Origin: Chloroflexi bacterium OLB15
Lineage (GTDB): Bacteria; Chloroflexota; Anaerolineae; Aggregatilineales; Phototrophicaceae
Direction of reading: 5' to 3'
Assembly (NCBI GenBank): GCA_001567085.1
Contig: LMZS01000072.1
Span: 1 to 64,000 of the forward strand
DNA: 64,000 nt
This document shows, piece by piece, positions 8,525-15,016 of the stretch. Position numbers and translations under genes: made by a program. How positions within the stretch are numbered: the stretch's first letter is position 1; each line of letters begins with the position of its first letter. Below the pieces are notes generated by a model that saw only the letters and a list, made by a program, of their open reading frames with translations, was not told where the DNA came from and did not search any database.

Positions 8525-9940
8525 TTATGCCGTTACTGCTTCCAATGCCAGATCGTGCAGCGCCACCACTGCCCGCTTCAGGTCAACTTCGCTAACCACA
8601 AACGAGATGCTCACTTCAGACGCGCCTTGTGCAATCGCGATCACATTGACGCCGGCATCGCCCATCGTTGTAAATACTCGCCCTGCCACGCCCGGCGTCC
8701 CTGCCATACCTGCGCCAACCGCTGTGAGGATGGCAACTTCTGCCATTACGTTCACGCTGTCCACATCGCCGCGCTCAATATCCCCGGCCAATTCACGTTC
8801 AATGGACTGCTTGGCGTAATCAGCGCGATCATCGGTGACGACGAAGCAGAAATTCTGCTCAGACGACGCCTGTGAAATCATCAGAATATTCGCGCCTACG
8901 TTCGCCGTCGCCAGAAATGTACGCCCTGCGATGCCCGGCACGCCCATCATGCCGCGTCCGCTAACCGTAAGTAGCGCCACGTTTCGCACTGCCGTCACAG
9001 CTTTTACAACCGTTGTGCTAGGTTCAGAATCAGGGCCGATCAGCGTGCCCAGATGCGTAGGGTTGAAGGTGTTGCGAACGCGGAGAGGAATACGCTTGTT
9101 CAGGATTGGCTGTACCGTTTTGGGATGCAGCACCTTCGCGCCGTAAAAAGCAAGCTCGCCCACTTCCTGATAACTGACATAAGGGAGCACCCGCGCCCGT
9201 TTATCCACACGCGGATCGGTGGTCATCACGCCGTTAACATCTGTCCATACGACCAGCTCATCGCTGTCAACACACGCCGCAAAAATCGCCGCCGAATAAT
9301 CGCCGCCGCCGCGTCCTAGCGTGGTCACATGACCATCAGGCGTTGCGCCGATAAAGCCAGTGATCACCGGCACAATCCCCTTTTCTATAGCCGGCAGCAG
9401 CGTGCGCCGAATATTAGCTTCCGTTTCATCCCATCTGACGGTGGCGCTGGTAAAGCGATCATCCGTCAACACCATCTTTGAAGCGTCGTAAGCTCTGGCC
9501 TCAACCCCTTGATTGCGTAGTGCTGCCGCAACCATACGCGCCGACATACGCTCACCCGCAGAAACAATAGCATCGGTGATGCGCGGCGTGGCTTCGCCCA
9601 GTATATTGACCGCCTGGCACAATTCCGAATGCTGCTTGAGGATGCCATCAATTTCATGCAGCGTGTTTTCGCGATCCACGCCCGGCGCGGTGAACATATT
9701 AACCGTCTCTTCGTGGCGGTCACGCAGCTTTTGCGCCGCCGAAAGATACGCCCACTTGTTGCCCGCTGCGGCTTCCTTCACACAGCCTAGCAAAATATCA
9801 GTAACGCCAGACATGGCCGAAACCACGACCACGATGTTATCGCCTCGTCCTACCGCGTCAGCGACAATTGAAACGACGTTCTGAATCGCTTCAGGACTGC
9901 CCACCGAGGTTCCGCCAAATTTCATTGTAATTGTTGCCAT
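8525..9940 (-). CDS. lysC: Aspartokinase (monofunctional)
   Basis: A 471-residue aspartate kinase that makes aspartyl-4-phosphate, the first step toward Lys, Thr, Met and Ile. The N-terminal signature KFGGTSVGS (7-15) and the glycine-rich TTLGRGGGDYSA in the middle form the amino-acid-kinase ATP/aspartate site. Two C-terminal ACT-type regions (about residues 310-465) with LLTVSGRGMMG and ILTAVGAGMAG bind the feedback effector. No homoserine dehydrogenase domain is fused. ATG 9940 is chosen because AAGGAGAG lies just upstream; the frame is open to 9967 but that would leave no ribosome site and would run into the leader terminator. Expression appears to be controlled by the Thr/Met leader immediately upstream. 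Confidence 0.96.
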   Translation of the reverse strand: MATITMKFGGTSVGSPEAIQNVVSIVADAVGRGDNIVVVVSAMSGVTDILLGCVKEAAAGNKWAYLSAAQKLRDRHEETVNMFTAPGVDRENTLHEIDGILKQHSELCQAVNILGEATPRITDAIVSAGERMSARMVAAALRNQGVEARAYDASKMVLTDDRFTSATVRWDETEANIRRTLLPAIEKGIVPVITGFIGATPDGHVTTLGRGGGDYSAAIFAACVDSDELVVWTDVNGVMTTDPRVDKRARVLPYVSYQEVGELAFYGAKVLHPKTVQPILNKRIPLRVRNTFNPTHLGTLIGPDSEPSTTVVKAVTAVRNVALLTVSGRGMMGVPGIAGRTFLATANVGANILMISQASSEQNFCFVVTDDRADYAKQSIERELAGDIERGDVDSVNVMAEVAILTAVGAGMAGTPGVAGRVFTTMGDAGVNVIAIAQGASEVSISFVVSEVDLKRAVVALHDLALEAVTA

Positions 9941-9964: not shown

Positions 9965-9995
9965 CAAAAAAGCGCGTGGGGGTGTCCCACGCGCT
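9965..9995 (-). terminator. Attenuator terminator in the aspartokinase leader
   Basis: Minus strand: AGCGCGTGGG (9995-9986) pairs perfectly with CCCACGCGCT (9980-9971), loop of five bases, then a run of five or six Us. It lies between the leader peptide stop (10028) and the aspartokinase ribosome-binding site, so it must be bypassed for the gene to be transcribed. Its 5' arm overlaps a segment (9997-9991) that can pair instead with 10023-10017. Confidence 0.85.
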
Positions 9996-10027
9996 CGATT
10001 TACTGACCAGTTACAACGTGCGCTCCA

Positions 10028-10099
10028 CTACCCCCGCATCACCCGATGTGGCGTCATAGTCATCATAGTAGTGGTAGTGCTAATCGAATAGCCGCGCAT
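10028..10099 (-). CDS. Thr/Met-rich leader peptide of aspartokinase
   Basis: A 23-codon frame on the minus strand that starts ATG CGC GGC and stops at TAG. Residues 8-16 read T-T-T-T-M-M-T-M-T; the codons for residues 8-13 are ACT ACC ACT ACT ATG ATG. Nine regulatory residues in a row, all products of the aspartate pathway, are far beyond chance for so short a frame. It lies 37 bases downstream of a TTGACA promoter and just before a strong terminator, the layout of ribosome-stalling leader peptides such as thrL. GAAGG lies 14 bases before the ATG, a longer gap than usual. A TTG at 10120 is in frame and would add 7 residues, but it would sit close to the transcription start. The peptide itself probably has no other role. 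Confidence 0.75.
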   Translation of the reverse strand: MRGYSISTTTTMMTMTPHRVMRG

Positions 10100-10135
10100 T
10101 GTGTTGAAAATTGCCTTCAAATCAATACTTCCGGT

Positions 10136-10165
10136 AGCATAGCGCGAGACAATAGCGTTTGTCAA
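10136..10165 (-). promoter_or_regulatory. Promoter of the aspartokinase leader
   Basis: Minus strand: perfect TTGACA (10165-10160), 18-base spacer, TATGCT (10141-10136). Transcription would start near 10129, giving a leader of about 190 bases before the aspartokinase start. On the + strand the same bases read TTGTCA (10159-10164), 17 bases before CATAGT (10182-10187), a weaker candidate promoter for the divergent aminotransferase gene. Confidence 0.85.
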
Positions 10166-10234: not shown

Positions 10235-11065
10235 ATGCCCTGCATTATCCAATTCTTGACCCCCAGTGGCCTTGAGCCAGCGCCTTACACCGCCAATTCA
10301 CTCGCTGATGCTGCCCAGTACGAACCCCGCGATGGCGTTTATACCATCACCAATACTTTCCACATGACGCAGGTTTTGAATTTCGACGCCCATCTTGACC
10401 GCATGGAAAATTCAGCGCGTATTGCCGGTGTTTCGCTGCAACTAGACCGTGCGCGGGTGCGTTCGGCGCTTCGCGAGCTGATCAAGGCAGCGAATTTTGG
10501 CGATGTACGCTTTCGTATTACCGCTGCGCCCTCGCTGGGCAGCGCCCTAATTCTGTCCATTGAGCCGTTTATGCCGCTCGCGCCGAAAGTATATGAAAAT
10601 GGGGTTCGCGTGGTTACGCTGCCTCACGCATCCCGCGCCACGCCAAACGCTAAAACCACCGGTTGGATGCTTGACCGCCGCCAGATTGAAGAAAGCCTGC
10701 CGTCCGGCATCTTCACAGGCCTTCTGGTGAGCGAATCGAACGAAATCCTTGAAGGCGTAAGCAGCAACTTCTACGCGGTATTCAATGGCGAGCTGCGAAC
10801 AGCGGGGGAAGGTGTTCTGCCGGGCATGGCGCAAAAAGTGGTATTTGAGATCGCAGAAAAGGTCTTACCACTCGTAAAAACGCCTGTTCACGTCAGCGAT
10901 ATTCCGCAGTTAAGTGAGGCTTTTATCACCAGCGCCAGCCGGGGCATCGTGCCTGTAGTCGAAATTGATGGGTATGTGTTAGGCGATGGCCGCCCCGGAG
11001 AAAAGACACAGGCGCTGCAAGGGTATTATCGGGGCTGGGTGAATTTACATCTCGAAGAACTCTAA
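10235..11065 (+). CDS. Class IV (fold-type IV) PLP aminotransferase
   Basis: A 276-residue relative of branched-chain aminotransferases, D-amino-acid aminotransferases and aminodeoxychorismate lyase. The candidate PLP lysine is in TPNAKTTGWMLDRR (K140). The motif EILEGVSSNFYAV (about 166-178) corresponds to the conserved E(G)xxSNxF segment of the family, and TSASRGIVPV near residue 230 to the phosphate-binding loop. The N-terminus lacks the YGxGxFE-type motif and instead reads EPRDGVYTITNTF. The exact reaction cannot be decided. It is divergent from aspartokinase and may share its control region. The ATG at 10235 follows GGACGAG, an imperfect ribosome site. Confidence 0.85.
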   Translation: MPCIIQFLTPSGLEPAPYTANSLADAAQYEPRDGVYTITNTFHMTQVLNFDAHLDRMENSARIAGVSLQLDRARVRSALRELIKAANFGDVRFRITAAPSLGSALILSIEPFMPLAPKVYENGVRVVTLPHASRATPNAKTTGWMLDRRQIEESLPSGIFTGLLVSESNEILEGVSSNFYAVFNGELRTAGEGVLPGMAQKVVFEIAEKVLPLVKTPVHVSDIPQLSEAFITSASRGIVPVVEIDGYVLGDGRPGEKTQALQGYYRGWVNLHLEEL

Positions 11066-13650: not shown

Positions 13651-13673
13651 AGTTCATTCAGCCAACGAATAGG

Positions 13674-14908
13674 TTAAAGCCCCGCCGAAGCCCGCAGCGC
13701 ATCGGCCTTGTCAGTGCGTTCCCACGGCACATCCAGATCAATACGCCCAAAGTGCCCGTAAGCAGCCACCTGCTTATAGATCGGGCGGCGCAGGTCAAGA
13801 TCACGGATGATGGCCGCCGGGCGCATATCGAAATGCTGGCGAATAAGCGCCTCAAGCTGCTCGTCAGAAATGACGCCAGTACCGAAGGTTCTACGGCCAG
13901 CGACGTAGGGTGTGACACGCCAATCGCATAAGACACCTGAAGCTCGAAGCGCGTCGCCAAACCTGCCGCAACCACGTTCTTGGCGATATAACGCGCCATG
14001 TAAGCCGCGCTGCGGTCTACTTTGGTCGGGTCTTTGCCGCTGAACGCGCCGCCGCCATGCCGGGCAACGCCGCCGTAAGTATCCACAATGATCTTACGCC
14101 CGGTCAGACCAGCATCACCCATCGGGCCACCAGTCACGAAACGTCCGGTTGGGTTTACGAAAATGCGGGTTGCATCGTCAACCAGATTAGCCGGCACAAC
14201 CGGGCGAATAATCTCGCGGATCACCGTCTCACGAATCTCTTCAGGAGACACTTCCGGCGCGTGCTGGGTAGAAATCACGATAGTGTCCACCCGCTTCGGC
14301 TTGCCAAATTCATACTCAATCGTGACCTGGCTCTTGGCGTCCGGGCGAAGCCATGTAATATCGCCTGCTTTACGTATCTCAGCCAGGCGGCGAGTCAATT
14401 GATGCGCCAGTGAAATGGTCATCGGCATGAGTTCGGGGGTTTCATCGCAGGCAAACCCGATCATCATCCCCTGATCGCCCGCGCCAGTCGCCTCAATTTC
14501 CGCGTCCGTCATCAAACCTTCGCGCGCTTCAAGCGCGTTATCTACCCCCAGCGCAATATCCGATGATTGTTCCTTAATAGATACCATCACGCCGCAGGTA
14601 TCCGCGTCAAAGCCATATTTCCCGCGCGTATACCCGATATTGGTCACGGTTTCGCGAACAATCTTTTCAATGTCTACATACGTGCTGGTGGTTATCTCGC
14701 CAAACACGAAGACCACGCCAGTGGTGGTTGAACATTCACAGGCCACGCGGGCATTAGGATCGCGCGAAAGTATTTCGTCGAGAACGGCATCCGAAATCTG
14801 ATCGCACATTTTATCTGGATGCCCCTCAGAAACTGACTCTGAGGTGAAGAAATAGCGCGGCGAAGTCATAAACGTGGTTGCTGGCTTTACTTGCTGTCGC
14901 TCTAACAT
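13674..14908 (-). pseudogene. metK: S-adenosylmethionine synthetase, one-base frameshift near 13889
   Basis: MetK joins ATP and methionine to make SAM. The start ATG 14908 follows AGGGAGAG. Family motifs are clear from [20 protein letters not shown] through GAGDQG(M)MIG and [19 protein letters not shown] to [16 protein letters not shown]. After that the frame turns to nonsense. Reading one base over restores the rest of the family: [43 protein letters not shown], with a stop at 13676-13674 just before the terminator. The expected GTAGAAACCTTC is GTAGAACCTTC, one A short of a run of three. The last about 70 residues, including active-site and dimer residues, are lost if the deletion is real. 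An assembly error is as likely. The gene is essential in most bacteria and is under a SAM riboswitch here. Confidence 0.9.
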
Positions 14909-14958
14909 AGAACTCTCCCTTGATGGTGTTTTGATTAGCAACTTCGCGCACCGGAAAT

Positions 14959-14989
14959 AAAAAAAGCCTCGCGCACAGACGAGGCTTTT
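14959..14989 (-). terminator. Expression-platform terminator of the SAM riboswitch
   Basis: Minus strand: AAAAGCCTC (14989-14981) pairs with GAGGCTTTT (14970-14962), loop of 10 bases, then a run of seven Us. It sits between the SAM aptamer and metK; when SAM is bound this stem would form and stop transcription. Confidence 0.88.
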
Positions 14990-15016
14990 GACGTATACAT
15001 TGCTTGCGTACACGTT

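Follow-up and report, generated by a model that had tools for sequence, protein, structure and literature searches.

On the minus strand of the DNA analysed here, a stretch of 64,000 nucleotides from Chloroflexi bacterium OLB15 (hereafter the window; the source genome comprises 3.8 Mb in 190 contigs), a short open frame rich in threonine and methionine codons and a terminator lie between a promoter and a gene for aspartate kinase, and the locus raises the question of whether transcription of this gene is governed by translation of that frame. The thrL leader of the E. coli thrABC operon is an arrangement of this type, in which Thr codons within a leader peptide, alternative hairpins and an intrinsic terminator precede a target that encodes aspartokinase. 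An initial annotation of the window had proposed leader-peptide attenuation that reads Thr and Met codons ahead of a monofunctional aspartokinase, and the comparative analysis described here supports that proposal. Judging from sequence comparison and folding models, we consider the region to be, with a probability of roughly 0.87, a ribosome-mediated transcription attenuator controlling aspartokinase.

The elements of the locus are collected in Table 1. The promoter and the 23-codon frame with its Thr/Met run were found exactly where they had first been placed, as was the terminator with its U-run, the stem of which had been given as a perfect 10 bp and is counted here as 11. Eight of these pairs are G-C, and the terminator heads the list of 14 obtained for the 8 kb scanned. 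The target is identified as an aspartate kinase (TIGR00657, 411 bits against a cut-off of 208.7), and its named relatives belong mostly to the Anaerolineae, phylum Chloroflexota. Because the upstream neighbour gene is divergent, we assign promoter, leader and terminator to the aspartokinase. Elsewhere in the window, a SAM riboswitch (RF00162, 85.8 bits) precedes a metK-like gene. A second aspartokinase (locus L002, G000 C181) is 37% identical, and the terminator, leader, attenuator and Rfam match are all absent from it.

Table 1. Positions of the features of the aspartokinase leader region and its surroundings in the window.
Feature	Position	Strand	Remarks
Upstream neighbour gene	10235-11065	+	divergent
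Promoter TTGACA-18-TATGCT	10136..10165	-	TTGACA 10165-10160, 18-nt spacer, TATGCT 10141-10136; drives leader and aspartokinase
Alternative in-frame TTG start of leader frame	10120	-	
Leader peptide frame MRGYSISTTTTMMTMTPHRVMRG	10028..10099	-	23 codons, ATG 10099 to TAG 10030-10028
Control codons T-T-T-T-M-M-T-M-T	10052..10078	-	modelled stall positions favouring the antiterminator
Possible outer extension of arm 1, CCACTACT	10074-10067	-	
Arm 1, CTATGACGCCACATC	10045..10059	-	predicted to pair with arm 2 (anti-antiterminator)
Arm 2, GATGCGGGGGTAGTGGAGCGC	10020..10040	-	at leader stop codon; predicted partner arm 1 or terminator
Core of 1:2 hairpin	10051-10045 with 10040-10034	-	CCACATC with GATGCGG; conserved
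Core of antiterminator	10037-10031 with 9982-9978	-	G-rich segment at leader end with C-run in terminator loop and 3' arm; conserved
Intrinsic terminator and U-run	9965..9996	-	11-bp stem, 5-nt loop; GAGCGCGTGGG-acacc-CCCACGCGCTT at 9996-9970, then T-run
Arm 3, predicted antiterminator partner	9978..9994	-	5' arm and loop of the terminator, together with the beginning of its 3' arm
Ribosome site of aspartokinase, AAGGAGAG	directly upstream of ATG 9940	-	
Aspartate kinase gene, putative regulated target	8525..9940	-	471 aa, ATG at 9940
SAM riboswitch RF00162	15015-15120	-	before metK-like gene 13658-15013

Whether this arrangement is peculiar to one contig was addressed with the upstream regions of 89 orthologous aspartokinases of the family. 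A Thr/Met-rich leader frame followed by a strong terminator was present in 85 of these 89 loci (one of the 85, L036, is counted although it scores only 4/12) and absent from the remaining four (L044, L062, L072 and L089). The relatives thus bear out what the initial annotation had looked to them for, with a retained Thr/Met run, compensating pairs and a conserved terminator, the stem columns of which are among the top covarying pairs of the family. Of 82 family loci, 80 have a sigma-70-like promoter at the matching position, against 3.8 expected from shuffles; it lies a median of 76 nt before the run. Beyond the family, the arrangement was found in 7 of 14 loci of a sister family of the order (f4) and in about 21 other Anaerolineae, including many Anaerolineales and the cultured species Pelolinea submarina (L243). 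Candidatus Thermoflexus sinensis (L259) has it too; among the loci read from Chloroflexota outside the Anaerolineae, no such leader precedes aspartokinase. The elements first noted are correct to the base, and their recurrence goes well past anything chance would give. Three loci of the sister family (L167, L168 and L169) carry a similar terminator-like hairpin before aspartokinase and a leader frame that has lost the Thr/Met run (for example MYELVSLPLVAVMTFICVAMPVLHSQTRLMLG...), and these leaders are possibly decaying or re-specified. In a record titled Bacteroidetes (L253), aspartokinase follows a thrL-like Thr/Ile leader (MKTITTTTIPTG...) and terminator. Two further loci (L107 and L108) share a GC-rich segment (GGGGGAGGTTGCGACGCCGGCGTCGCGGTG... 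and a variant) some 60-200 nt before aspartokinase, which has no Rfam match at gathering and is a possible unnamed regulator.

A terminator between promoter and gene could in principle act constitutively, with the leader frame never translated, and the weak ribosome site at the ATG of the window's leader might be taken to favour such a reading. However, as the upstream neighbour is divergent, the terminator has no upstream gene to serve, and the promoter is conserved along with the leader, the arms and the terminator. Furthermore, codon changes in the leader frame lean towards synonymous ones: among single-base codon changes in 23 disjoint close pairs, 48 of 106 (45%) were synonymous, against 27.5% expected (p=7e-5), and this bias is limited to the leader frame, both other frames being at expectation. 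This frame-specific bias supports the view that the frame is coding, and we regard an untranslated leader before a constitutive terminator as highly improbable. It is equally far-fetched, in our estimation, that the leader peptide itself is the active agent, through nascent-chain stalling or in trans, rather than the reading of its codons. Leader peptides of other species can reportedly work in trans (PMC7298713), but between clades the present peptide is barely conserved beyond its Thr/Met content, unlike arrest peptides. Leader peptides and RNA arms alike vary widely in sequence while the Thr/Met run is kept.

Attenuation by a translating ribosome further requires RNA segments with alternative partners, and these were sought around the end of the leader frame. 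The pairings first suggested for the window are located as claimed, yet neither constitutes the core of the structure it was meant to describe: GCGCACG with CGAGCGC is an outer extension of the predicted antiterminator, and CCACTACT with GGTAGTGG, which draws on the same arm 2, is a possible extension on the outside of the 1:2 core. Column-wise covariation gave no clear signal for the antiterminator, being hidden by register shifts in the loop, and for this reason a partner-swap permutation was chosen. With the arm region fixed beforehand, the predicted duplex of arm 2 and arm 3 averaged -27.0 kcal/mol with its own partner vs -22.2 kcal/mol with a swapped one (about 5 weaker), a difference reached in 0 of 5000 permutations, and the outcome was again 0 of 5000 with 16 dissimilar representatives. 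As the permutation does not model relatedness, the tests with dissimilar representatives and within groups weigh most; another version of the 2:3 test, which picked arm 2 by its own partner and is biased as a result, was not relied on. According to duplex prediction, clades with different sequences arrive at the same arm 2:arm 3 pairing, the window combining GCGGGGG and CCCCC, another genus GTGGAGGTTTC and GAAACCTCCAC, L162 CCGGTTGCTTCACG and CGTGGAGCAACCGG, and L199 CCGCGAGGCG and CGCCTCGCGG. On these sequence comparisons, arm 2 of the putative antiterminator co-varies with the terminator and its pairing would exclude it.

Support for the competing 1:2 hairpin is moderate within the family and less firm elsewhere. 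Compensating changes are seen between leaders (CCACATC/GATGCGG and CACATAG/CTATGCG), and a run-anchored comparison of own and swapped partners in the family gave z of about -3, with the anchor mis-set in some leaders. The first arm definition yielded no 1:2 signal, and in the Anaerolineales set the run anchor, which is mis-set there, yielded neither a 1:2 nor a 2:3 signal.

The position of the control codons relative to these arms was examined in a folding model in which the transcript ends within the 3' arm of the terminator and the ribosome covers 15 nt on the upstream side of its A site and 13 nt on the downstream side. For the window, the model predicts about 13 antiterminator pairs while the A site is on S-T-T-T-T-M-M-T and mostly 5-8 elsewhere. 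Over 112 leaders the mean was 12.3 pairs when the ribosome occupied Thr/Met codons, 6.5 when it had reached the stop and 8.1 in its absence. Modelled antitermination was strongest at codons -21 to -13 relative to the stop, where Thr and Met make up 58-87% of residues; over codons -20 to -13 their share is 0.70-0.87. As modelled, then, the control codons sit where a stalled ribosome would free arm 2. Folding of the full-length transcript at equilibrium, with the ribosome entered as a block, was dropped as a test of the switch, as the terminator prevailed in nearly all leaders and states and the procedure did not discriminate. In the folding under alternative constraints proposed at the outset, a ribosome on the Thr/Met codons thus favours the antiterminator in the partial transcript, but equilibrium keeps the terminator nearly everywhere. 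As such, the switch would have to be kinetic, decided during transcription of the terminator, and we have assumed this to be so.

Taken with the known thr and trp attenuators, this anatomy leads us to infer a response to Thr and Met supply as registered by tRNA charging. When charged tRNA-Thr and tRNA-Met are ample, the ribosome would reach the leader stop and cover arm 2, and it is proposed that the terminator consequently forms and halts transcription. Scarcity of either tRNA would leave the ribosome stalled within the Thr/Met run, where it would mask arm 1, and arm 2, thereby freed, could pair with the emerging top of the terminator (arm 3), such that the terminator would fail and aspartokinase would be transcribed. 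If there is no translation at all, the 1:2 hairpin is expected to form and leave the terminator functional.

That the leader senses threonine is near certain; sensing of methionine, argued from the sequences, is likely. In the family, the 12 codons of the run include on average 5.1 for Thr and 3.3 for Met, which corresponds to 43% Thr and 28% Met, with Ile at 3%, and all four kinds of Thr codon are used. One might postulate that the attenuator senses Thr alone, the Met codons being incidental and retained for RNA structure or by history. Thr is indeed found in every leader, while certain leaders of Anaerolineales contain little Met (with a minimum of 0 per run, and none besides the start in L279), and the T-boxes found at the same gene in relatives specify Thr. 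Nevertheless, Met accounts for 28-31% of the run in families f1 and f4, vs roughly 2-3% in ordinary proteins, and Met codons occupy the same sensitive positions as Thr codons (0.71 vs 0.75, compared with 0.44 for other residues). Many Met codons lie upstream of arm 1, and the aspartokinase of some relatives stands under SAM riboswitches. We consequently find a Thr-only sensor unlikely, and prefer a leader that reads both amino acids.

In its Thr codons, alternative hairpins, terminator and aspartokinase target, the element resembles thrL (Rfam Thr_leader). It differs in reading Thr and Met rather than Thr and Ile, and in preceding a monofunctional aspartokinase outside any thrABC operon and in a different phylum. 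The Rfam Thr_leader covariance model found no match in the window region at gathering, nor up to an E of 0.5, and no Rfam family, RF00230 (T-box) and RF00162 (SAM riboswitch) included, matched before the window's aspartokinase. Other Anaerolineae carry these two elements at the same gene. A T-box precedes aspartokinase in L112 and L118 (the latter under the family's gathering score), with a specifier that, as we read the alignment, aligns to ACC (Thr); like the present leader it would sense tRNA-Thr charging and control a terminator, but it binds the tRNA directly, without a leader peptide. A SAM (S-box) riboswitch occupies this place in L106, L132, L138, L144 and L149, and shares the Met-branch input and the downstream terminator, but binds SAM without translation. 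In the genomes of the family, scans found no Thr/Met leader with terminator upstream of hom, and no Trp leader upstream of trpE. T-boxes precede trpE in the window's genome (L298, C133, 1100-1363) and in L290, L300, L303 and L306; Trp control therefore uses an RNA system other than that of aspartokinase.

Attenuation by a reading ribosome has been described outside the Proteobacteria for the trp, ilvB and leuS leaders of Actinobacteria and a His leader of Firmicutes (PMC1262725, PMC2965389), which concern other amino acids and genes. No threonine or methionine operon attenuators were found in Actinobacteria (PMC1262725), and in 2010 leader-peptide systems had, to the knowledge of the authors who added the Firmicutes His leader, been shown only in Proteobacteria and Actinobacteria (PMC2965389). 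The earlier remark that no Thr and Met leader had been described before a monofunctional aspartokinase held for the open-access literature, in which we found neither such a leader nor any leader-peptide attenuator of Chloroflexota. The proposed mechanism is thus of a known kind, while the pairing of Thr with Met and the phylum Chloroflexota appear new for leader-peptide attenuation. On balance we think it probable, with less assurance than attaches to attenuation itself, that this dual-input leader, responding to the charging of tRNA-Thr and tRNA-Met, represents the first case of ribosome-mediated attenuation in Chloroflexota, and that leader peptide, Thr T-box and SAM riboswitch, three unrelated RNA sensors, have replaced each other at the aspartokinase of Anaerolineae with the Thr and Met inputs kept.

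Such an element would extend translation-coupled attenuation to a deep and mostly uncultured phylum, and would imply tight coupling of transcription and translation there. A response to scarcity of either Thr or Met fits the branches that aspartokinase feeds, and the locus may offer a natural case of RNA sensors interchanging at one gene. With about 112 diverse examples, these leaders could serve as a model set for the evolution of attenuators and as a candidate new RNA family.
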